Assembly: GCF_019278525.1 (NCBI RefSeq)
Contig: NZ_CP058986.1
Location: 2,514,001-2,578,000 of the forward strand
DNA from: Polaribacter sp. HaHaR_3_91
GTDB lineage: Bacteria > Bacteroidota > Bacteroidia > Flavobacteriales > Flavobacteriaceae
Length of the DNA: 64,000 nucleotides
Direction: 5' to 3'
A program made the position numbers and the translations under genes. Shown piece after piece: positions 27,042 to 36,712 of this stretch. The notes under the pieces are model-generated. The model was not told where the DNA came from and made no database searches. It was given only the letters and a program-made list of their open reading frames with translations. The first letter of the stretch is position 1, and each line of letters opens with the position of its first letter.

Positions 27042-27716
27042 CTATATTTCTAACTTTAATGTTTTAATATCTACGATTAATTGCTTTACAGAGTTTTTAC
27101 TTAAACCGTTGTAAATACCTCTAATGTGTTTATTTTTATCGATAAGAACAAAGTTTTCTGTGTGTAGAAAATCATCAATTCCTTTTGGTTTGCCTAAATC
27201 TTCCTCCACAAAATAAGACTTTCTTCCTAAATCGTAAATTTGTTTTTTATCACCAGTAACCAAATGCCAATTTTGGCCTATATTTTTATCTAAAGCATAT
27301 TTTTTTAACTGAGCTATAGAATCTATAGAAGGTGTTACGGAATGTGAAAGTATTAAAACTTCATCATCATTTTTAAAAGCCTCCTGAACAAGAATCATAT
27401 TATCGGTCATCATCGGACAAATACCAGGACACGTTGTAAAGAAAAAATCTGTAACATAAATTTTATTCTCAAATGTTTGTTGACTGATATTCTCCCCATC
27501 CTGATTTGTTAAACTAAAATCTGGAATGGTATGAAAAGTATTTAAAGCATCGCTTTTAGCATCGATCCATTTTGGTGTAAAAGATGCTTCATTATAATAA
27601 GGCAATACATCAACTTTACTTGCTATTTCTTTATGATCTGTTTTTTTACAACTTAACAAAAGACATAACCCTATTAGTAAAAAACTATAATTCTTTATTT
27701 TTTTTAATTTTTTCAT
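27042..27716 (-). CDS. SCO-family copper chaperone/thioredoxin-like lipoprotein
   Basis: 224 aa. Lipoprotein signal (LLLSC, Cys23), then a thioredoxin-fold SCO1/SenC domain with the copper-binding pair CPGIC (Cys96, Cys100) and the third ligand His185 in FLHTENFVLID. SCO proteins deliver Cu(I) to or reduce the CuA site of cytochrome oxidase, or handle copper and disulfides in the periplasm. It is the last gene of the sigma-factor module, and its start overlaps the end of the MORN-repeat gene by 32 nt, indicating coupling. Confidence 0.9.
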   Translation of the reverse strand: MKKLKKIKNYSFLLIGLCLLLSCKKTDHKEIASKVDVLPYYNEASFTPKWIDAKSDALNTFHTIPDFSLTNQDGENISQQTFENKIYVTDFFFTTCPGICPMMTDNMILVQEAFKNDDEVLILSHSVTPSIDSIAQLKKYALDKNIGQNWHLVTGDKKQIYDLGRKSYFVEEDLGKPKGIDDFLHTENFVLIDKNKHIRGIYNGLSKNSVKQLIVDIKTLKLEI

Positions 27717-28305
27717 CTTTTAATTGATAACATAAATTTGCACGCTTCATTCCAAAAGTTCTGCCATTTTTAGCTTCATAATTTACATAGATCTTGCCGT
27801 TTTGTAACCAAGCTCTTTGCAAACCATTTTCATTTCCTTTTAACAAATTTCTTTCTTTAGACATTACTCCATCAACATACCATTGTCGCTCTAGACCTTG
27901 CAACTTCCCTTTTTTGTAAGTTGCCTCATAAGCCAAAGTACCGTTTAGCCACCAAGCTTTATAACTGCCCTCCATAACATTTTGGTTGTAATGCGATGTT
28001 ACTTTTAAAACTCCATTTTTAAACCAAACGTTATAAACTCCTTCTTTTTTACCATTATAAAAACCGGTCTTTTCCTTTAAGGAATCATTGGTATGATATT
28101 TAACTGCAACCCCATTAAAAAGCTTGTTTTTATAATACCAATTCCCTTCGTTACCGTTTAAGATTAAACTATCTTTATGAACCGTAACAGTACTATCAAT
28201 AGTTCTAATTTTAATAGCAGTATTTTTCTTTTTATTATTGGTTGAAGAATTACAACCAATAATAAAAATTGAAAAAAGGAAAAAAAAGAATGCTGTTAAT
28301 TTCAT
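27685..28305 (-). CDS. MORN-repeat (YwqK-like) lipoprotein
   Basis: 206 aa from the ATG at 28303-28305; the longer in-frame start lies inside the upstream YHYH gene and would delay the signal peptide. Signal and lipobox end in FIIGC. The mature part consists of MORN/YwqK-type repeats such as NGKKEGVYNVWFKNG, EGSYKAWWLNGTLAYEA and GLERQWYVDG. Such proteins are often named YwqK antitoxins, but no toxin is present and the protein is exported, so that name is not supported here. It starts 1 nt after the YHYH stop. Confidence 0.8.
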   Translation of the reverse strand: MKLTAFFFFLFSIFIIGCNSSTNNKKKNTAIKIRTIDSTVTVHKDSLILNGNEGNWYYKNKLFNGVAVKYHTNDSLKEKTGFYNGKKEGVYNVWFKNGVLKVTSHYNQNVMEGSYKAWWLNGTLAYEATYKKGKLQGLERQWYVDGVMSKERNLLKGNENGLQRAWLQNGKIYVNYEAKNGRTFGMKRANLCYQLKDEKIKKNKEL

Positions 28306-28306
28306 A

Positions 28307-29071
28307 TTAGTAACCTTGGTAAGGGCCTGCAAAAGCAATATAAGAACCTGTTGTAGAGTACAATTCGTTTATTATATGATAATGATATTCTTCTATTCCA
28401 TTTGAATGTTGAGTTATAGAAGTATGTCCGCCAGAAGTATCTAAATCCGTTGGGTAAGTATCTGTTGAATTACATTTTCTACCATATAAGAATACACCAT
28501 CTAATAAAATACCTACTAGATTTTTATCATCGTTTGTAAATGCTTTTGGTTCTAAATGATAATGATATACTCCAGGTCCAATATGTGCTCCGGTCCAATC
28601 TAAACTTGCTGCTGCTTGATCTAAAGCTCCGTTTCCTTCTTGGTCATTAAATATAGAAGCACCACTTATAGCAACACCAATCGTATTTAATTGTGTACTG
28701 ACCGTACTACCCGTTAAATTTGGAGTAGCATCTACCGTAATGGTAACTGCGTTATTATTACTAGACATTATAGATGGAGTTGTAGCTACATCAGATTCTT
28801 CCAAGTATAAATCGCTATCTTCTCCCCAATATACACTTTCGTGATTTGGTAAACCTGTTGTTTCTATAGTTACCGTTGTACCTCCATTAGATAAATAAAT
28901 ATCGGTTGCATCTGTATTAAACTCTGCATACGCTGCATGCAATTCTGTTATAACAACATCATCTATTTCAGTGTCTGTACTTAAATCCGATTCACTATCA
29001 GACGTACAAGAAACAAATGCAGAAAAAAGTAAAACAATAAGTGATGTGGTCTTAATAAATTGGTTTTTCAT
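28307..29071 (-). CDS. YHYH-domain lipoprotein
   Basis: 254 aa, lipobox FVSC. The YHYH domain is defined by paired His motifs: GPGVYHYHLEP (about residue 175) and IEEYHYHIINE (about 235), with GILLDGVFLYGRKC between them. The function of YHYH proteins is unknown; the clustered histidines suggest metal binding. An ECF-type promoter ends 26 nt before the start. It is followed by the MORN and SCO genes in one unit. It is a shorter relative of the next upstream protein, which has an added EF-hand tail. Confidence 0.85.
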   Translation of the reverse strand: MKNQFIKTTSLIVLLFSAFVSCTSDSESDLSTDTEIDDVVITELHAAYAEFNTDATDIYLSNGGTTVTIETTGLPNHESVYWGEDSDLYLEESDVATTPSIMSSNNNAVTITVDATPNLTGSTVSTQLNTIGVAISGASIFNDQEGNGALDQAAASLDWTGAHIGPGVYHYHLEPKAFTNDDKNLVGILLDGVFLYGRKCNSTDTYPTDLDTSGGHTSITQHSNGIEEYHYHIINELYSTTGSYIAFAGPYQGY

Positions 29072-29097
29072 TTTTTTAATTATTGGTTTATATAATC

Positions 29098-29125
29098 TTT
29101 AGATGTGGTTTCTAAAAAAAACTTG
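29098..29125 (-). promoter_or_regulatory. ECF-type promoter d (YHYH-MORN-SCO unit)
   Basis: Minus strand: CAAGTTT, 13 nt, CATCTAAA. It is identical in both boxes and spacer to the sites at 30242, 32134 and 33180, and lies 26 nt from the YHYH start codon. Confidence 0.85.
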
Positions 29126-29138
29126 CGGTTTTTATTTT

Positions 29139-30218
29139 TTATTTCTTTTTGGGTTCTTTTCCCAATTCATCTTTGGTTATAAAACCATCATTATTTTTAT
29201 CAACTTTAGAAAAATCTTCCTTTAAAGGTCCTTTGGTTTCTGTTTTAGATAATTTTCCATCCTTATCTGTATCCATCATTTCTAATAGTTCCTCAAAGTT
29301 TTTACGTTCTCCTCCTTTTCTTTCTTCATTCCCATCTCTAGGCGGTCCTCTACGCTCATCTTCTTTTACCTCTCCCATTAAACATCTGCTTACATACGGA
29401 AATTCATTTGTAACCAAGTACATATATTTTCCATCAATTGTAATTCCGTTACATTCATCTAAATCTCCTGAATTTGCTACATATTCAAAATCGGAACCAT
29501 AGGTTCCATCATGATCATCATTTACAGCAATATTTATAGTTTCTTTCGGGTTTTCATAAACACAATCTTCTCCCTCACGCGTTCCGTCTAATAATTTGTA
29601 ACTCGGTTTGTAAGCATTACTTTTAGAGTAATAAATAGGAAAACCATCGTGCGCAAAACCAACGTGTACTAAATCTTTTCCGGTATCAAATTCTTCAATT
29701 ACAGACGTTGGCGTTCCATGATAATGATACTCGCCGGTAGGTTGCACATGTGCATGATTAAAATCGAGTCCTAAATCTATAACATCTTGAAAAGCTTCTA
29801 CCCTATAATTTTCTCCCGTTTCACAAACAACAACTTCTGCTGTTCCGGGTTCAAACTTTACACCATTTAAAGCAACTCCTGGTTCTCTAACCCAAGTTGC
29901 CTTCCCTGTATACTTTGGATTTACAGGAAACGTGTAATTTTTATTTTGTTCAGAAATTGTATTCGGATTTCCTTTTCTTGGAAAAGCACCGGTTTTATGG
30001 TCTGGCAATGCATTTGTAACCATTTTTCGTTCATTACCTGTTACAGTAACAATTGTTTTTGTTCCAAAGATTTTACTTATTAAACTATAGGAATCAAAAT
30101 AATTTACAGCAGTATGTGTATGGCTTTCTGTTTCTCCATGATGTGTATGCTTTGTTGCCTGACTTTTACAACCTATTAATAAAATACTTGCTAATATTGG
30201 TATGAAATACTTTTTCAT
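29139..30218 (-). CDS. YHYH-domain lipoprotein with His-rich N-terminus and EF-hand tail
   Basis: 359 aa. After the lipobox (LLIGC, Cys16) comes a His-rich stretch (KHTHHGETESHTHT, about 22-35) that could chelate copper or zinc. The YHYH domain follows, with HAHVQPTGEYHYHG and VHVGFAHDGFPIYY. A charged linker leads to two EF-hand loops near the C-terminus (DTDKDGKLSKTE and DKNNDGFITKDE), which match the small EF-hand protein at 31811-32104. Function unknown; calcium binding by the tail and metal binding by the His clusters are inferred. It has its own ECF-type promoter. Confidence 0.85.
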   Translation of the reverse strand: MKKYFIPILASILLIGCKSQATKHTHHGETESHTHTAVNYFDSYSLISKIFGTKTIVTVTGNERKMVTNALPDHKTGAFPRKGNPNTISEQNKNYTFPVNPKYTGKATWVREPGVALNGVKFEPGTAEVVVCETGENYRVEAFQDVIDLGLDFNHAHVQPTGEYHYHGTPTSVIEEFDTGKDLVHVGFAHDGFPIYYSKSNAYKPSYKLLDGTREGEDCVYENPKETINIAVNDDHDGTYGSDFEYVANSGDLDECNGITIDGKYMYLVTNEFPYVSRCLMGEVKEDERRGPPRDGNEERKGGERKNFEELLEMMDTDKDGKLSKTETKGPLKEDFSKVDKNNDGFITKDELGKEPKKK

Positions 30219-30241
30219 TTTTTTAAATTGTTTTATAAAAG

Positions 30242-30269
30242 TTTAGATGTCTTTTTATAGATAAACTTG
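30242..30269 (-). promoter_or_regulatory. ECF-type promoter c (YHYH/EF-hand gene)
   Basis: Minus strand: CAAGTTT, 13 nt, CATCTAAA. It ends 23 nt before the start codon of the YHYH/EF-hand gene and follows the CotH terminator. Confidence 0.85.
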
Positions 30270-30290
30270 TGTTCTTTAACTTATTTTAAC

Positions 30291-30323
30291 AAAAAAAGCC
30301 TCATAATTTCTTATGAAGCTTTT
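30291..30323 (-). terminator. Terminator of the EF-hand/CotH unit
   Basis: AAAAGC-C-TCATAA pairs with TTATGA-A-GCTTTT around TTTC, with one internal mismatch. Seven A on the plus strand give the minus-strand U-tract. Confidence 0.8.
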
Positions 30324-30354
30324 AACAATTAACCAAACTCAAATACTATTTTCT

Positions 30355-31767
30355 TTAATCTAAATAAGCTGCTACCGCTGTTTTTCTAGAGGTCGCATGT
30401 GATTTTAATTGACTAACTGCCGATTGAAAATCTGAACTATTATTTAAAAATGAATATCCTGCAACTTCTGATGTTGCATATTCTTCTACCAAAGCAGCAT
30501 AACTTGTATATAAAGCCTGAATTGTAGTTTCATTAAATGCACCATTTATAACCTCTTCTACATACGCATCATACTTTTCTTTATAAACTTCATCTTGATA
30601 CATATACCCAATTAAAGGCCATTGAGATGAACTTAAGCCAGAGAAATTTAAAGGTAAAGAACCTCCCATTTTACCAGTTTGTAAAGCTTCATTATTATCC
30701 CAAGGAATCCATGTTAATTTGCTCGTAGCAGGGTCATTGTATAAGAAATAGTTATGTGTCATTCTACCATAAGTATCCCAATTTTGAACCACCGTATTTA
30801 CTGCTAAATATTTTAAAAAGACCTCAGTATCAAAAACAGCATCTAAAGTGGTTCTCCAAGCTTCAGGATCTGAAGTTCTAGTACCATCGTTTATAATTGT
30901 TAAAAGGTTTTGTACATCAGAAAAATCTGCCTCATCTTCATTATTCTTTTTCACATATTCATCTTCATCAAAAGTTCCGCTTGCAAAACTTGCTGCATCT
31001 CCATCTGGTTTGTATAAATTTCCGTCATCATCAGAAAATTGTGTATCTAAAACACTTCCATCTACTTCTTCAACTAAAGTATACAACCCAAAATACTGTG
31101 GTCCATCTCCATGATCTACATATAAGGTGTAAAATGCGGTATGAGAAGCTACTAAACCAGCATTTCTAAACACATCTGTGGCTACCTTTTCTCTTAACAT
31201 AGAGCTATCATCATAATTATTTTTAAGACTCAATTTTTTAATTCCATAAAAACGTTGATTCTTTATTTGAGGATAATCATCTTCAAACTCATCAAAATCT
31301 AATTTAAACGATAGCTTTAAAATACCTGCTTGCCAACTAGACTGCAAACTAGAATTTCCTTTAAAACGCAAACCAACTCTGTACCATTCATTACCTTCAT
31401 AAAAAACTTCTCCAGGAACAAAAATAGGATCTTCGTCTGAAAAACCACTTGCACCACTTTGCCCAAATGTGCCGTAAAGGTTTTCCATATCATCTAACAT
31501 GGTTTGCCAACGCTCTTCTGTAATTACAAAGTCTAACCTTTTTACTGTGTTATCTTCAAAAACTTCGCTAATATTTGGGTCTACATCTTTACTATGTGTA
31601 GCTTCGGTCCAATCTATTGCTTCAAAATCTGTATCATCTATTACCACAGCAACTTCTTCGTTATCATCTGTGTCATCTACTACAACATCAGAAACATCAT
31701 CACTTGTACACGAAAAAATAAAAAGTGTAATCACTAATGAGAATAATTGAATTTTATAATTTTTCAT
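30355..31767 (-). CDS. CotH-type protein kinase lipoprotein
   Basis: 470 aa from the ATG at 31765-31767 (MKNYKIQLFSL), which starts the signal peptide; a longer open frame overlaps the EF-hand gene and is rejected. Lipobox IFSC, a long Asp-rich linker, then the CotH domain. It includes RLDFVITEERWQTML, GLRFKGNSSLQ, KLSFKLDFDEF, LKNNYDDSSMLREKVATDVFRNAG, YFGLYTLVEEVD and a late WIPWDNNEAL. CotH proteins are atypical kinases that phosphorylate secreted proteins (spore coat CotB/CotG in Bacillus). The target here is unknown; the neighbouring exported proteins are candidates. It is cotranscribed with the EF-hand gene. Confidence 0.88.
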   Translation of the reverse strand: MKNYKIQLFSLVITLFIFSCTSDDVSDVVVDDTDDNEEVAVVIDDTDFEAIDWTEATHSKDVDPNISEVFEDNTVKRLDFVITEERWQTMLDDMENLYGTFGQSGASGFSDEDPIFVPGEVFYEGNEWYRVGLRFKGNSSLQSSWQAGILKLSFKLDFDEFEDDYPQIKNQRFYGIKKLSLKNNYDDSSMLREKVATDVFRNAGLVASHTAFYTLYVDHGDGPQYFGLYTLVEEVDGSVLDTQFSDDDGNLYKPDGDAASFASGTFDEDEYVKKNNEDEADFSDVQNLLTIINDGTRTSDPEAWRTTLDAVFDTEVFLKYLAVNTVVQNWDTYGRMTHNYFLYNDPATSKLTWIPWDNNEALQTGKMGGSLPLNFSGLSSSQWPLIGYMYQDEVYKEKYDAYVEEVINGAFNETTIQALYTSYAALVEEYATSEVAGYSFLNNSSDFQSAVSQLKSHATSRKTAVAAYLD

Positions 31768-31810
31768 AATTAATTGTTTGATTGATTTTTTTGATTCTAT
31801 TTTGTTACCC

Positions 31811-32104
31811 TTAATTTCTAGCTCTTTCTCTTCTTTCTGGTTTTGGGGCATCTTTCAGTTCTTTTTCTGAAATGAAACCATCTTCATCTGTATCAATTTT
31901 TTTAAAATCTTTAACCAAAGGCCCTTTTACTTCTTTTTGAGAAATTTTACCATCTTCATTAGCATCAAATTCTTTTAAAAGTTGTTTAAATGTTGGAGGC
32001 CCTTTTGGTTTTTCATCAGAATTACCTTGTTGTGCAAAAGTTGATACTGATACTCCTAAAGAAACTATTATTACTGCTAAAAATTTATTTGTTGATTTTT
32101 TCAT
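31811..32104 (-). CDS. Small secreted EF-hand protein
   Basis: 97 aa. A signal peptide (ends STFAQ) is followed by two EF-hand loops, DANEDGKISQKE and DTDEDGFISEKE, separated by the KGPLVKDFKK block. The same block (KGPLKEDFSK) joins the EF-hands at the end of the YHYH protein at 29139-30218, so the two genes share a module by duplication. It probably binds calcium in the periplasm or outside. It is the first gene after ECF promoter b and is followed by CotH after 43 nt. Confidence 0.85.
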   Translation of the reverse strand: MKKSTNKFLAVIIVSLGVSVSTFAQQGNSDEKPKGPPTFKQLLKEFDANEDGKISQKEVKGPLVKDFKKIDTDEDGFISEKELKDAPKPERRERARN

Positions 32105-32133
32105 TTTTAATCTATTTATTAAGTTTATATACC

Positions 32134-32161
32134 TTTAGATGCGAGTGCTTTTAAAAACTTG
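32134..32161 (-). promoter_or_regulatory. ECF-type promoter b (EF-hand/CotH unit)
   Basis: Minus strand: CAAGTTT, 13 nt, CATCTAAA, ending 29 nt before the EF-hand start. The upstream base pattern GCACAAGTTTTTA also matches copy a. Confidence 0.87.
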
Positions 32162-32270
32162 TGCACGTTAACTTTACTTTAACATATCTAATTAAAAAAT
32201 AGTAACACCTAAAAATTAAAGCATTAATTTTATTTTAAAAACACTTTAAAAATTAACTTCATCATTCTCA

Positions 32271-32308
32271 AAAAAAAATCCAAAGCAGTTAAGCTTTGGA
32301 TTTTTTTT
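32271..32308. terminator. Terminator after the Spy-like gene
   Basis: A perfect 14-bp stem, AAAAAATCCAAAGC with GCTTTGGATTTTTT, around AGTTAA. It ends the sigma/anti-sigma/Spy transcript, so the EF-hand unit needs its own promoter, which is present. Confidence 0.9.
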
Positions 32309-32332
32309 ATAACTAAATTATTTATAAATATA

Positions 32333-32821
32333 TTATCTTGGTGGCGGTGGCATTCTTTCATTTCCCGGAGGAGGCATGTTACCATCATTTGGAGGCATTC
32401 TATCTCCACCTCTTATGGCTTCTTTAATTATTTTATCAAACTTTTGCGCTTGATCTGCTGTACAAATTTCTCTTACCTGTTTAAAAAAAGAAAAAACCTC
32501 TGCATCCTTTTTTGCTTGTAAAAGTCCAATTTTTGTAGTTAAAGAATCAATCTTAAAATCTTTTTTATTAAAGCTATCAAATAAAATATCTTTTTGATCT
32601 TTAAGCTGATCTTCTAGACCTCTCATTACCTGTCTATGCGCTACATCTAATGTTTTAAATGATGCTTTTTGAGTTTCTGTAAAACTTAATTGTTCGGTTA
32701 AAAAATTTCTTGTCGGATTAATTCTTTGATTTTCATGTGGCTTTTTTACCAACATAAAAATTAATACTCCATTTAATAGTAGTAACAAGATTAGAAGAAT
32801 AGGAAGTAATTTTGATTTCAT
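32333..32821 (-). CDS. Spy/CpxP-like periplasmic protein with Met/Pro-rich tail
   Basis: 162 aa. One N-terminal hydrophobic helix (about 5-25), then a helical LTxxQ-type region (LSFTETQKASFKTLDVAHRQV and CTADQAQKFDKII), as in Spy/CpxP and related periplasmic metal-stress proteins. The last 25 residues are rich in Met and Pro (RMPPNDGNMPPPGNERMPPPPR region), a composition found in Cu(I)-binding tails. In flavobacteria such proteins usually follow an ECF sigma and a small membrane protein, as here. It starts 5 nt after the anti-sigma stop. Confidence 0.78.
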   Translation of the reverse strand: MKSKLLPILLILLLLLNGVLIFMLVKKPHENQRINPTRNFLTEQLSFTETQKASFKTLDVAHRQVMRGLEDQLKDQKDILFDSFNKKDFKIDSLTTKIGLLQAKKDAEVFSFFKQVREICTADQAQKFDKIIKEAIRGGDRMPPNDGNMPPPGNERMPPPPR

Positions 32822-32826
32822 AACTT

Positions 32827-33147
32827 TTAATTTAAAATAGAACTGCTATCTGATTGTAAAGAGTATTCTTGTGCAAACGTTTTAATATCTGAAGCTGAAC
32901 TTGTACTTTGAGATGAACTGTTAAAAGCATAAAAAATAGTTCCTATATTTAATAACAAAACAATACCTAAGGTTGCCAATTGTAACTGCGGTGTAAACCA
33001 AGAAAAAACAGGTTTCTTTTCTACCTTTTCAGCTTGTATTTTTTGTAAAACTTTATGCTTAAAAAAGTGATTTACTTCTACTTTATCAATAGTATCTAAT
33101 ACCTTAAAGGTCTCTTCTACTTTTTTATGTATATCTTTTTTATTCAT
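32827..33147 (-). CDS. Putative membrane anti-sigma factor
   Basis: 106 aa. A cytoplasmic N-terminal part of about 50 residues is charged and helical (KVEETFKVLDTIDKVEVNHFF), one transmembrane helix follows (about 55-75, LATLGIVLLLNIGTIFYAF), then a short periplasmic Ser-rich tail. This topology and its place directly after an ECF sigma gene suggest an anti-sigma factor. No ZAS zinc motif (HxxxCxxC) is visible, so the call rests on position and topology. It is the first gene after ECF promoter a, as expected for feedback control. Confidence 0.65.
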   Translation of the reverse strand: MNKKDIHKKVEETFKVLDTIDKVEVNHFFKHKVLQKIQAEKVEKKPVFSWFTPQLQLATLGIVLLLNIGTIFYAFNSSSQSTSSASDIKTFAQEYSLQSDSSSILN

Positions 33148-33179
33148 TTTATTTCAATTATAAAATAACATTATACTTT

Positions 33180-33207
33180 TTTAGATGCAAATTATTTTAA
33201 AAACTTG
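33180..33207 (-). promoter_or_regulatory. ECF-type promoter a (anti-sigma/Spy unit)
   Basis: Minus strand: CAAGTTT, 13 nt, CATCTAAA. It lies between the sigma stop codon and the anti-sigma start, 32 nt before the latter, giving an internal autoregulated promoter. Confidence 0.87.
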
Positions 33208-33210
33208 CGC

Positions 33211-33816
33211 TTAATTATTGTTTTTATAAAAATTTATTAATTTTTCTTGCAAACTCTTCTTAGCTCTAAACATTAAAGACTCTACCGAGGATAAACTTTT
33301 ACCCGTAATTTCTACTATTTCTTGATAACTTTTATCATCAATCTTTGCCAACGTAAACACAATTCTCTGTGCTTCTGGCAAAGTATTTATAGCCTTAAAA
33401 ATAGTTGCAGATTTTTCTTTATTCTCTAATAAAATACCTGGGTGATTTACTTCTGTAAAATAATTTGTTTTATCTAACGGAATTTCATTTCCTAAAATAG
33501 TTTGCATAAACGCAAATCTCTTTTTAGTATTCTTTTTTCTGATAAATTCTAGACACTTATTGGTCGCTATTTTATAAATCCAAGTAGAAAGTTTAGAATC
33601 TCCTTTAAATTTAGAAATAGATCTAAAAATTTCTAAAAAAACTTCTTGTGCAATATCTTCTGCATCTTCTTTATTAGGCACAAAAGAAATGCAGGTACCA
33701 AAAACTTTCTGTTGATAGTCATCTAAAAGTTGACTAAAAGCAGTCTGTTTTCCTGATTTTAATTGTGCTATTAAGTTCTCTTCGGTCAAGATTATTGTTT
33801 TCAAAAAAGTAAACAT
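33211..33816 (-). CDS. ECF RNA polymerase sigma factor
   Basis: 201 aa with sigma region 2 (about 15-90: FSQLLDDYQQKVFGTC, EDAEDIAQEVFLEIFRSI, KLSTWIYKIATNKCLEFIRKK) and region 4 (about 140-195: LPEAQRIVFTLAKIDDKSYQEIVEITGKS, SLMFRAKKSLQEKL), with no region 3, as in ECF sigmas. It heads the anti-sigma, Spy, EF-hand, CotH, YHYH and SCO genes. Four identical promoter motifs in that stretch are its likely targets. Its own start follows the mscS terminator by 5 nt, so its basal promoter is unclear. Confidence 0.92.
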   Translation of the reverse strand: MFTFLKTIILTEENLIAQLKSGKQTAFSQLLDDYQQKVFGTCISFVPNKEDAEDIAQEVFLEIFRSISKFKGDSKLSTWIYKIATNKCLEFIRKKNTKKRFAFMQTILGNEIPLDKTNYFTEVNHPGILLENKEKSATIFKAINTLPEAQRIVFTLAKIDDKSYQEIVEITGKSLSSVESLMFRAKKSLQEKLINFYKNNN

Positions 33817-33817
33817 A

Positions 33818-33852
33818 CAAAAAAAGACTGTCTAGATAAACAGTCTTTTCTT
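33818..33852. terminator. Terminator after mscS-like gene
   Basis: AAAAGACTGT (33822-33831) pairs with ACAGTCTTTT (33840-33849). The A-run before it on the plus strand gives a U-tract for the minus-strand mscS transcript. Confidence 0.85.
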
Positions 33853-33873: not shown

Positions 33874-34704
33874 TTATTTAGTCATTGTAACAACTCTTTG
33901 TGGTAAAGGAGCTTCATAACCGGCGTTTCCTAAAGCTTCTACAATTCTCTGTCTAGTATCCCAAAAAACATCCCAATAATTTTCACAATTAGCATAAGGT
34001 AAAGCTAATAACTCAACACTATTTTGTCCTAAATTATTTACGGCAACTCTTGGAGCACTTGCACCTTCTTGTAAAACATAATTATCTTTTAAAAGAACAT
34101 CCAATACAATTTGTTTTGCCTTCTCAATATCCGATCCATATCTAATTGCAAAAGGCATGTCGATACGTAGATTTCCTATTTTAGTTAAATTGGTAATCTT
34201 ATTAGAAGTAATGGTAGAATTTGGTATAATTTCAGTTTCATTCTGAAACGTTTCTATAACGGTAACAAAGACAGATATTTCTTTTACAAAACCAAAAGCT
34301 CCGTTTGTTTTAATTAAATCTCCTACTTTAAAAGGCTTAAAAATAAGTAACATAATACCTGAAGCTATATGCCCTAAAGAACCATTAAAAGCAGCACCAA
34401 TTGCCAAACCTACACCTGCCATTAATGCTGCAAAAGAGGCCATTGGCAAACCAACAATACCTGCAATAGAAATAATTAATAGTAATTTTAAAATAAAACC
34501 AATACTGGTTAATAGAAAAGGTTGTAAAGTTTCATCTAATTTTGTTTTTTCAAACCCTTTAGAAACTCCTTTCATAATCATCCTAATAATCCAAAGACCA
34601 ATTATTAATGCTGCAAAAGCACCAATTAATTGAAGTCCCCAGTTTCCTAAACCCGCAGAAATTGTGTTGTAAAAGTTTTGTAAAGATTGTGTAATTGTAT
34701 CCAT
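33874..34704 (-). CDS. Small-conductance mechanosensitive channel family protein
   Basis: 276 aa, close to E. coli MscS in length. Three N-terminal membrane helices; the pore helix region reads FAALMAGVGLAIGAAFNGSLGHIASGIMLL, with the Gly/Ala pattern of MscS TM3. A beta domain follows (FKVGDLIKTNGAFGFVKEI, IIPNSTITSNKITNLT) and an alpha/beta C-terminal part. It opens under membrane tension to release osmolytes on hypo-osmotic shock. It is a single-gene unit upstream of the sigma module but separated from it by a terminator. Confidence 0.92.
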   Translation of the reverse strand: MDTITQSLQNFYNTISAGLGNWGLQLIGAFAALIIGLWIIRMIMKGVSKGFEKTKLDETLQPFLLTSIGFILKLLLIISIAGIVGLPMASFAALMAGVGLAIGAAFNGSLGHIASGIMLLIFKPFKVGDLIKTNGAFGFVKEISVFVTVIETFQNETEIIPNSTITSNKITNLTKIGNLRIDMPFAIRYGSDIEKAKQIVLDVLLKDNYVLQEGASAPRVAVNNLGQNSVELLALPYANCENYWDVFWDTRQRIVEALGNAGYEAPLPQRVVTMTK

Positions 34705-35054: not shown

Positions 35055-36158
35055 ATGATATTATCTGTACTCTTCTACTCTTTTGTAGTATTTACAGCAA
35101 TACAAATTATTTATTATCTCATTTTTTCTTCTTTTTTATTCAAAAAAAAAACAGATAGAAAAAATGCCTTAGATATTCCTATAACTGTAATTGTATGTGC
35201 CAAAAATGAAGCTAAAAACTTACAAGATTTTTTACCATCTATATTAAATCAAGATTATTCAAATTTTGATATTGTTTTAATAAACGATGCTTCTTCAGAC
35301 GAAACATTAGAGGTTATGGAGTCTTTTGAAAAAGAACATTCTAATATTAAGTTAATTAATGTTGAGAATATAGAGGCTTTTTGGGGAAATAAAAAATACG
35401 CGTTAACACTAGGAATAAAAGGTGCAAAAAATGATCATCTCCTGTTTACAGATGCAGATTGTAAACCTGTATCTAAACATTGGATTTCTGAAATGTCTAA
35501 AAATTTCCAAGAAGAAAAAACCATTGTTTTAGGATACGGTAAGTATAAAAAAGAAAAATCATTAGTAAATTTATTTGTTCGTTTCGAAACCTTGTTAACT
35601 GCAATACAATATTTTAGTTATGCAAAATTAGGATCTCCGTATATGGGAGTTGGTCGTAATTTAGCATATCATAGATCTGAGTTTTTTAATGTGAAAGGTT
35701 TTATAAATCATATCCATATAAAATCTGGTGATGATGATTTGTTTATTCAAGATGCAGCTAACAAAGAAAATACGACCTTTACCATCTCTAAAAAAAGTTT
35801 TACAGAATCTATTGCTCCCAAAAGCTTTAAAGAATGGTTTCAACAAAAAAGGAGACATATATCTACAGCAAAATACTATAAACCAAAACATAAATTCTTT
35901 TTAGGCTTGTTCTTTGTTTCTAAAGTATTGTTTTATCTTTTGGCTATTCTTTTATTTTTCCTTTATCCTTGGGAACCTGTTTTAGCAATATTTTTAACGT
36001 ATTATTTAGTACAATTCATTGTTATCGGTTTTTCTGCTAAAAAATTAAAAGAACCAACCATCACTTATGTATTGCCTTTTTTAGAAATAGGCCTACTAAT
36101 ATTTCACTTTTCAATATTTATCACTAATTTGTCGTCAAAACCAAATCATTGGAAATAG
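35055..36158 (+). CDS. Family 2 glycosyltransferase, membrane protein
   Basis: 367 aa. An N-terminal membrane helix (about 5-27), then a GT-A domain with ITVIVCAKNEAKNL, LINDASSDETLEVM, DADCKPV (DxD) and an acceptor/catalytic GDDDLFIQ. A QKRRH motif (QQKRRHIST) sits where processive synthases have QxxRW. Three hydrophobic segments follow at the C-terminus. It probably adds sugars to a lipid or polysaccharide at the inner membrane. The donor and product are unknown. It overlaps the next sigma gene by 10 nt. Confidence 0.88.
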   Translation: MILSVLFYSFVVFTAIQIIYYLIFSSFLFKKKTDRKNALDIPITVIVCAKNEAKNLQDFLPSILNQDYSNFDIVLINDASSDETLEVMESFEKEHSNIKLINVENIEAFWGNKKYALTLGIKGAKNDHLLFTDADCKPVSKHWISEMSKNFQEEKTIVLGYGKYKKEKSLVNLFVRFETLLTAIQYFSYAKLGSPYMGVGRNLAYHRSEFFNVKGFINHIHIKSGDDDLFIQDAANKENTTFTISKKSFTESIAPKSFKEWFQQKRRHISTAKYYKPKHKFFLGLFFVSKVLFYLLAILLFFLYPWEPVLAIFLTYYLVQFIVIGFSAKKLKEPTITYVLPFLEIGLLIFHFSIFITNLSSKPNHWK

Positions 36159-36712
36159 ACAATACTAAACTTACAATCAATATTACAAAGGCTAAAAGTG
36201 GAAATCAATCTGCATTTAGATTCTTATTGGATACCTATTGGTCTGCCGTTTATAATTATCAATTAAAGAGAACACAAAGCGAAAACGAAGCAGAAGATAT
36301 TACTATACAAACGTTTTCTAAAGCTTTTGACAAAATTAATACTTTTGATGAACAGTATGTTTTTAAAACTTGGCTAATCACCATTTCTAAGAATGTTCAT
36401 ATCGATTTACTACGAAAGAAAAATATTTCTATCGCTACTAATACTTCTAAAGAACAAGAAGAAAAAGCGTATTTAGTAGTCGATGAAAACCCTACTCCTG
36501 AAGATAAAATTATTACAGAACAAAACTTAGCAAAGTTATTAAGGGACATCAAAAAATTAAAACCGAAATACCAAGAAGTGATTCAATTACGTTATTTTCA
36601 GGAATTATCATATAAAGAAATTTCCGAGCAAATTAACGAACCTATGAATAACGTAAAGGTAAAGTTGTTGAGAGCTAAAAAATTGTTAGCAGAGATTATT
36701 AAGAAATCTTAA
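36149..36712 (+). CDS. RNA polymerase sigma factor, sigma-70 family (ECF-like)
   Basis: 187 aa starting with TTG inside the last codons of the glycosyltransferase gene; there is no ATG before region 2, so the overlap start is preferred and implies translational coupling. Region 2 (FRFLLDTYWSAVYNYQ, NEAEDITIQTFSKAFDKI, FKTWLITISKNVHIDLLRKK) and region 4 (LKPKYQEVIQLRYFQELSYKEISEQI, VKVKLLRAKKLL) are clear. No anti-sigma gene is adjacent. Its regulon is not visible in the window. Confidence 0.9.
   Translation: MEIDNTKLTINITKAKSGNQSAFRFLLDTYWSAVYNYQLKRTQSENEAEDITIQTFSKAFDKINTFDEQYVFKTWLITISKNVHIDLLRKKNISIATNTSKEQEEKAYLVVDENPTPEDKIITEQNLAKLLRDIKKLKPKYQEVIQLRYFQELSYKEISEQINEPMNNVKVKLLRAKKLLAEIIKKS

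Follow-up and report, generated by a model that had tools for sequence, protein, structure and literature searches.

What does an extracytoplasmic function (ECF) sigma factor control when its gene heads a cluster of nine, and to which signal does it respond? The question is raised by a minus-strand module at positions 27,042 to 33,816 of a 64,000-nucleotide stretch of the Polaribacter sp. HaHaR_3_91 genome (contig NZ_CP058986.1, positions 2,514,001 to 2,578,000; hereafter the window). A preliminary description, made from the sequence alone, presented the module as the autoregulated regulon of the sigma factor, read from four identical promoters. Based on the comparisons below, the nine genes are quite probably a conserved ECF-sigma envelope regulon with a Spy/CnrX-type sensor, for which copper or another soft metal is the likeliest signal. 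For the regulon and its promoter taken by themselves we are close to certain. The module looks like an undescribed system that answers something outside the inner membrane, perhaps copper.

An exact and rare motif, probably a promoter

The promoter pattern is GCAAGTTT-N13-CATCTAAA, with CAAGTTT as its first box. Searched as CAAGTTT-N13-CATCTAAA, it has exactly four matches in the window, all on the minus strand, where the preliminary description had placed them (Table 1) and with the spacer of 13 nucleotides (nt) in 4/4. The gaps to the ATG codons at 33147, 32104, 30218 and 29071 are likewise as described, at 32, 29, 23 and 26 nt. The exact motif is absent from 100 dinucleotide shuffles of the window (mean 0.00, largest 0), and a chance repeat is ruled out by these shuffles together with the cross-genome counts given below. 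A weight-matrix scan of the whole window found nothing at 11 bits or above besides the four sites. Allowing up to three mismatches yields 7 matches where 9.2 are expected, and because this is no excess we place weight only on exact or near-exact sites.

The whole genome, a single contig of 4.2 Mb, contains the motif five times exactly and four times with one mismatch; the reversed pattern, used as a control, gives 5 matches in total at up to one mismatch. At two mismatches the counts are 75 and, for the reversed pattern, 45, so that loose matches are mostly noise. The genome-wide search that the preliminary description had proposed thus found a motif that is not common, with five exact sites in 4.2 Mb. 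Commonness without relation to the genes was ruled out, since the fifth exact site and one of the one-mismatch sites precede plausible members of the regulon. The former (C1:2907103) lies ahead of the gene for a secreted Pro/Gly-rich protein of 191 amino acids (aa) without a Pfam match. The latter (C1:2441802), which we accept, precedes the gene for a YHYH protein (Pfam), followed by those for a 210-aa protein that presumably resembles DUF6702 and for a second YHYH protein. The other three one-mismatch sites (L006, L008, L009) lie inside open reading frames (ORFs) on the opposite strand and were dropped.

The motif follows the sigma factor across Flavobacteriaceae

We analyzed 299 evenly drawn Flavobacteriaceae genomes, the Polaribacter genome itself included, scoring at most 10 candidates per genome and calling a genome sigma-positive if it held an orthologue at E ≤ 1e-50. 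The sigma orthologue is present in 35/299 genomes, at least one exact site in 36/299, and both in 30. The 35 sigma-positive genomes contain 88 exact sites (all in 30 of these genomes), whereas the 264 sigma-negative genomes contain 6, one each in six genomes; read backwards, the motif occurs 6 times over all 299 genomes. An exact site is missing from five sigma-positive genomes and lies, in a sixth, on a different contig from the sigma gene; in 6/6 of these loci a site with one or two mismatches lies directly ahead of the anti-sigma gene. In the stretch from 150 nt upstream to 40 nt inside the anti-sigma gene, 23 of the 35 sigma-positive genomes match the motif exactly, 9 differ from it at one position at best and 3 at two; the reversed control always has at least three mismatches. 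Gene families of the set follow 82/88 exact sites, a number in which four cases are circular since the ASST-like, Spy2, CotH_T9 and CCPb families were defined from genes at sites. The comparative check suggested in the preliminary description therefore shows motif and gene set co-occurring with the sigma factor across the family, and it establishes the sites and the regulon. Judged from sequence, it is very likely that the linked ECF sigma factor uses these sites as its promoters.

Six exact sites in sigma-positive genomes (L085, L088, L089, L093, L094 and L096) are not followed by a gene of the set; the one in L093 is 170 nt ahead of the ATG of a gene for a lipoprotein of unknown kind (467 aa). 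Within the genus the module is patchy, with a sigma match (E ≤ 1e-30) in 11/36 genomes searched, again including the genome of the window.

Genes behind the promoter

The gene families that carry sites were counted in 80 named loci (L105-L184), which are the best kept by sigma similarity from the genome collection and not a random sample; they come from Polaribacter, Winogradskyella, Algibacter, Tamlana, Lacinutrix, Kordia, Hyunsoonleella, Aureibaculum and other genera. An anti-sigma gene adjoins the sigma gene in 79/80 loci, and 79/79 of these genes have a site at up to two mismatches: 62 of the sites are exact, and 13 and 4 carry one and two mismatches, respectively. Because the anti-sigma sites served to train the weight matrix, its score for those genes is circular. 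For other families, sites of at least 15 bits precede 33/56 EF-hand, 42/74 short YHYH, 13/25 long EF-hand, 12/29 YHYH-EF, 9/39 CotH and 6/11 VTC genes. The corresponding numbers for MORN (0/65), SCO (0/64), DUF4956 (0/11) and Spy (2/79) concern genes that are mostly operon-internal. At the same threshold the controls gave 13/637 unlabeled ORFs and 0/671 reversed upstream regions. Lowering it to 14 bits yields 264 sites, of which 241 are ahead of labeled families, 14 ahead of unlabeled ORFs (eight of these encoding proteins of at least 323 aa that are CotH-like by eye only) and 9 ahead of none. Ahead of EF-hand and YHYH genes the distance to the start codon is mostly 24-33 nt.

YHYH genes are present in 73 and SCO genes in 60 of the 80 loci, and VTC and DUF4956 genes in 11 each. 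At other loci, further sites stand ahead of VTC units (where DUF4956 and DUF2490 come next), of di-haem cytochrome c peroxidase genes and of sulfatase genes. The promoter is good enough for finding regulon members from sequence alone, and it defines a regulon for families that are little studied or of unknown role, namely YHYH, bacterial CotH, DUF4956 and MORN lipoproteins. As a separate observation, the anti-sigma ORF starts (ATG) only 8-9 nt past the CATCTAAA box in 29/79 named loci, for which reason the anti-sigma transcript may be almost leaderless. An 860-aa ORF at C1:1549647 (L249) has a sulfatase-like start and also a YHYH domain, and so joins two regulon families in one protein.

Probable feedback on the anti-sigma factor rather than on the sigma factor

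The sigma protein contains Sigma70_r2 and Sigma70_r4_2, no further Pfam domain, and matches the sigma70-ECF model above cut-off. Its nearest solved chains are RpoE, SigW and sigma-H (E ~1e-28), with CnrH at E 2.9e-10. Many matches to orthologues start only at residue 8-10 of the query, and the real start may be the TTG at 33789, residue 10.

The description of the module as an autoregulated regulon held in part: that the sites serve the linked sigma factor as promoters is very likely, but none was found before the sigma gene in the window, where a weight-matrix search led us to reject autoregulation. The 17 named loci closest to the window agree. A site precedes the sigma gene in 30/80 named loci but in 0/17 of those ranked closest (L105-L121), and a terminator-like hairpin (33852-33819) stands ahead of the sigma ORF in the window. 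Because, of the two, the anti-sigma/Spy operon alone has a site, the output of the sigma factor would feed back on the anti-sigma/Spy-like brake and not on the sigma factor. The response would thus brake itself, given that anti-sigma and sensor belong to the regulon, and without a site at the sigma gene there would be no positive loop through it in this lineage.

A putative anti-sigma factor and a candidate CnrX-like sensor

The 106-aa protein encoded beside the sigma factor is a putative anti-sigma factor, as judged from its position. It has no sequence match to CnrY chains, other solved chains or Pfam, and among 25 homologues no Pfam anti-sigma family (class I) was found above cut-off, with a single weak match to Sigma_reg_N (E 0.061). 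CnrY-type (class II) anti-sigma factors are, according to a passage in one report, very dissimilar in sequence (PMC7406223).

The next protein matches Spy by profile (E 2.4e-5), although as a single sequence it stays under the Pfam cut-offs (LTXXQ, 20.2 of 24.3 bits; Metal_resist also below). Its structure model has a predicted local distance difference test (pLDDT) score of 84, and eight CnrX entries lead the list of structural matches in Foldseek's own ranking, establishing the Spy/CnrX fold by comparison. H62, M66 and C120 are conserved and are candidate metal ligands. The CnrX residues E63 and M123 appear in the PDB titles of the matched entries, and further metal ligands of CnrX are H42, H46 and H119. 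We consider CnrX-like sensing likely. To the regulon claim of the preliminary description the analysis adds this fold, distal members of the regulon and a wide conservation.

Conservation beyond the family

At the scale of the class, a sigma profile match (E ≤ 1e-40) is present in 46/247 genomes. We analyzed 21 distant loci, mostly the best-scoring, from 47 matches outside the genome of the window (including L083). A Spy-like gene lies within three genes of the sigma gene in 18/21, and the order sigma, anti-sigma, Spy, YHYH, MORN, SCO occurs in three (L227, L234, L236). The promoter is kept only partly outside Flavobacteriaceae: ahead of the anti-sigma gene, in the 16 distant loci where one was recognized, it is exact in 2 (L218, L219), has one mismatch in 1, two in 1 and at least three in 12. 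Genes for MbnP and a MauG-type peroxidase are present in 7/21 distant loci, four of the pairs being confirmed by Pfam.

In two groups of loci from other families (L222, L225 and L233; L226, L228 and L229), the operons that begin with sigma and anti-sigma genes, in most cases joined by a Spy-like gene, are of quite another make-up: one kind has recurring proteins of 80, ~350 and ~460 aa, the other a protein of ~900 aa. The switch thus seems to be reused.

Organization of the module

The nine ORFs are present with the domains named in the preliminary description, as judged by Pfam, with MORN_2 and LTXXQ/Metal_resist under their cut-offs (27.7 against 29.6 bits for MORN_2) and the anti-sigma protein without a match. 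Terminator-like hairpins lie 3' of the Spy gene and 3' of CotH, and thus after the first two units, as had been stated. By eye, the output proteins of the window (EF-hand, CotH, YHYH-EF, YHYH, MORN and SCO) have signal peptides or lipoprotein-type N-termini.

Table 1 Coordinates of the sigma module within the window
Feature	Position	Strand	Evidence
Terminator-like hairpin between mscS-like gene and sigma	33819..33852	-	Terminator scan
ECF sigma gene	33211..33816	-	201 aa (longest ORF); Sigma70_r2 + r4
Promoter site 1, ahead of anti-sigma/Spy	33180..33207	-	Exact match; weight-matrix score 36.5
Putative anti-sigma, short single-pass membrane protein, 106 aa	32827..33147	-	Position beside sigma; putative function
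Spy-like periplasmic protein, N-terminal anchor, CnrX-like fold, putative sensor	32333..32821	-	Spy profile match; model
Terminator-like hairpin 3' of Spy gene	32271..32308	-	Read directly from sequence; terminator scan did not list it
Promoter site 2, ahead of EF-hand/CotH	32134..32161	-	Exact match; weight-matrix score 33.0
Small secreted EF-hand protein, 97 aa	31811..32104	-	EF-hand Pfam models above cut-off
CotH kinase-type lipoprotein	30355..31851	-	CotH E 6.3e-71; likely start ATG 31767, lipobox
Terminator-like hairpin 3' of CotH	30294..30323	-	Terminator scan
Promoter site 3, ahead of YHYH-EF	30242..30269	-	Exact match; weight-matrix score 17.9
YHYH-EF lipoprotein, 359 aa, His-rich N-terminus, C-terminal EF-hands	29139..30218	-	YHYH E 1.9e-54 + EF-hands
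Promoter site 4, ahead of YHYH/MORN/SCO	29098..29125	-	Exact match; weight-matrix score 23.7
YHYH lipoprotein, 254 aa	28307..29071	-	YHYH E 5e-9; alignment of 20
MORN-repeat lipoprotein	27685..28338	-	Likely start ATG 28305; MORN_2 below cut-off; lipobox by eye
SCO1/SenC lipoprotein, 224 aa	27042..27716	-	SCO1-SenC E 7.4e-26

Upstream of the sigma gene, in the window as in several close relatives, is an mscS-like channel gene (33874-34704, minus strand). Near the module, at 36149-36712 on the plus strand, there is a further ECF-type sigma gene (187 aa), and many other loci have a similar, weaker sigma match in the neighborhood of the module.

Mechanism and signal

In the mechanism we propose, the short single-pass anti-sigma factor would keep the sigma factor at the inner membrane, and the membrane-anchored, periplasmic, helical protein of Spy/CnrX fold would report the state of the periplasm to it, as CnrX does to CnrY. 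A signal would free the sigma factor for transcription from GCAAGTTT-N13-CATCTAAA promoters. The regulon would comprise the four units of the module and at least two distal units (the two YHYH genes; the 191-aa secreted protein), and its products, exported lipoproteins and secreted proteins, would handle metals and modify envelope molecules. YHYH domains are predicted by others, in a passage of one paper, to be zinc-binding hydrolases (PMC7824862), and a passage of another mentions YHYH once, in diatoms (PMC11992049); a search of solved structures with the YHYH profile gave no match at E below 0.1.

That the signal is copper or another soft metal is a tentative reading, which may well prove wrong. 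One excerpt lists MbnPH-like genes together with copper genes (PMC9426467), and a statement in a 2013 paper held that no data then tied close MbnP homologues to copper (PMC3621798). Three results count against copper: there is no pump gene among the first genes at the 88 exact sites, MbnP is found in 0/118 Flavobacteriaceae loci, and the MbnP cluster of the genome itself lacks a promoter site, which speaks against a simple copper regulon. Copper resistance of the usual kind was rejected, because no pump gene was seen among the first genes at the sites. The one MbnP gene of the genome lies at C1:4186939 (L248), beside TonB-receptor-like and di-haem-peroxidase-like genes.

The alternative that survives best, unlikely in our view, keeps the regulon and takes its signal to be general periplasmic protein-folding or envelope stress, relayed by a Spy/CpxP-type chaperone with no metal sensed. 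It accords with the profile match to E. coli Spy (E 2.4e-5), with the annotation of homologues as 'Spy/CpxP family protein refolding chaperone' and with a sigma factor nearest to RpoE and SigW chains and not to CnrH. Less probable still, the same regulon could serve the building of surface polymers or biofilm (polyphosphate, polysaccharide, calcium-binding surface proteins), with SCO and peroxidases as helpers. CotH, VTC, DUF4956 and EF-hand genes do recur, and CotH and DUF4956 both come up in a paper on Gram-positive Pel polysaccharide clusters (PMC7112168), but VTC and DUF4956 genes number only 11 each in the 80 named loci and lie outside the window module, against 73/80 for YHYH and 60/80 for SCO. 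A binding site for another conserved regulator traveling with the locus, for which one could cite the lack of direct evidence linking sigma factor and site and the 12/16 sigma-anti-Spy loci of other families at three or more mismatches, is very improbable, given two boxes at fixed spacing and mostly 24-33 nt ahead of EF-hand and YHYH starts, and given sigma, anti-sigma and Spy genes as constant neighbors with no other constant regulator gene seen. Such paired boxes resemble the -35 and -10 elements of ECF promoters.

Returning to metal sensing by the regulon, a more far-reaching account, which we hold less likely than not, would make it an ECF system that senses metals and is widespread among Bacteroidota. 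From one fixed promoter, a sensor of CnrX fold, equipped with a His/Met/Cys site (for copper or silver), would drive a surface and periplasmic set; the YHYH proteins would be envelope enzymes that bind or depend on metals and act together with SCO, EF-hand proteins and CotH kinases; and in distant families the same switch would control the MbnP/MbnH copper pair. If true, this would provide the first common physiological role for YHYH, bacterial CotH, MORN lipoproteins and DUF4956/VTC.

Comparison with known systems

The preliminary description knew of no described system with this gene set, and in open-access papers we likewise found no account of the set or its promoter; a paper on copper genes of a Bizionia species (PMC11213822) yielded no more than one entry in its list of references. 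The MbnP/MbnH pair (MbnP with a di-haem MauG-like peroxidase) is present at orthologous sigma-anti-Spy loci, in 7/21 distant ones, but is missing from the window module, the genome's own MbnP cluster lying elsewhere without the promoter. With Spy/CpxP proteins the third gene shares sequence and fold. In E. coli, Spy and CpxP are parts of two-component systems, whereas the protein here adjoins an ECF sigma and an anti-sigma factor and is anchored by an N-terminal helix. RpoE/RseA and SigW/RsiW include the closest solved relatives of the sigma factor and share a single-pass membrane anti-sigma factor and envelope targets; they differ in that no class I anti-sigma domain was found in the 25 homologues and that a Spy/CnrX-type protein is the constant third gene here.

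CnrYXH of Cupriavidus metallidurans (sigma CnrH, anti-sigma CnrY, metal sensor CnrX) resembles the module in its adjoining ECF sigma, membrane anti-sigma and periplasmic CnrX-fold protein. Its sigma-dependent promoters are given, in a passage of one report, as cnrYp ahead of the anti-sigma operon and cnrCp ahead of the target operon (PMC9045368); here too, judged by motif only, sigma-type promoters precede the anti-sigma operon and target units. In contrast, the sigma factor here has its nearer relatives in RpoE and SigW and not in CnrH, no resistance-nodulation-division (RND) efflux genes are found among the nine genes or the first genes at the 88 exact sites, the anti-sigma protein has no sequence match to CnrY, the order is sigma, anti-sigma, sensor, and the candidate ligands seem to differ. 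Membership in CnrYXH proper was rejected because two defining features, the sigma type and the RND target, fail. The likeliest mechanism is a CnrYX-like switch acting on an RpoE-like sigma factor, with a periplasmic metal, copper ahead of others, as its presumed signal.

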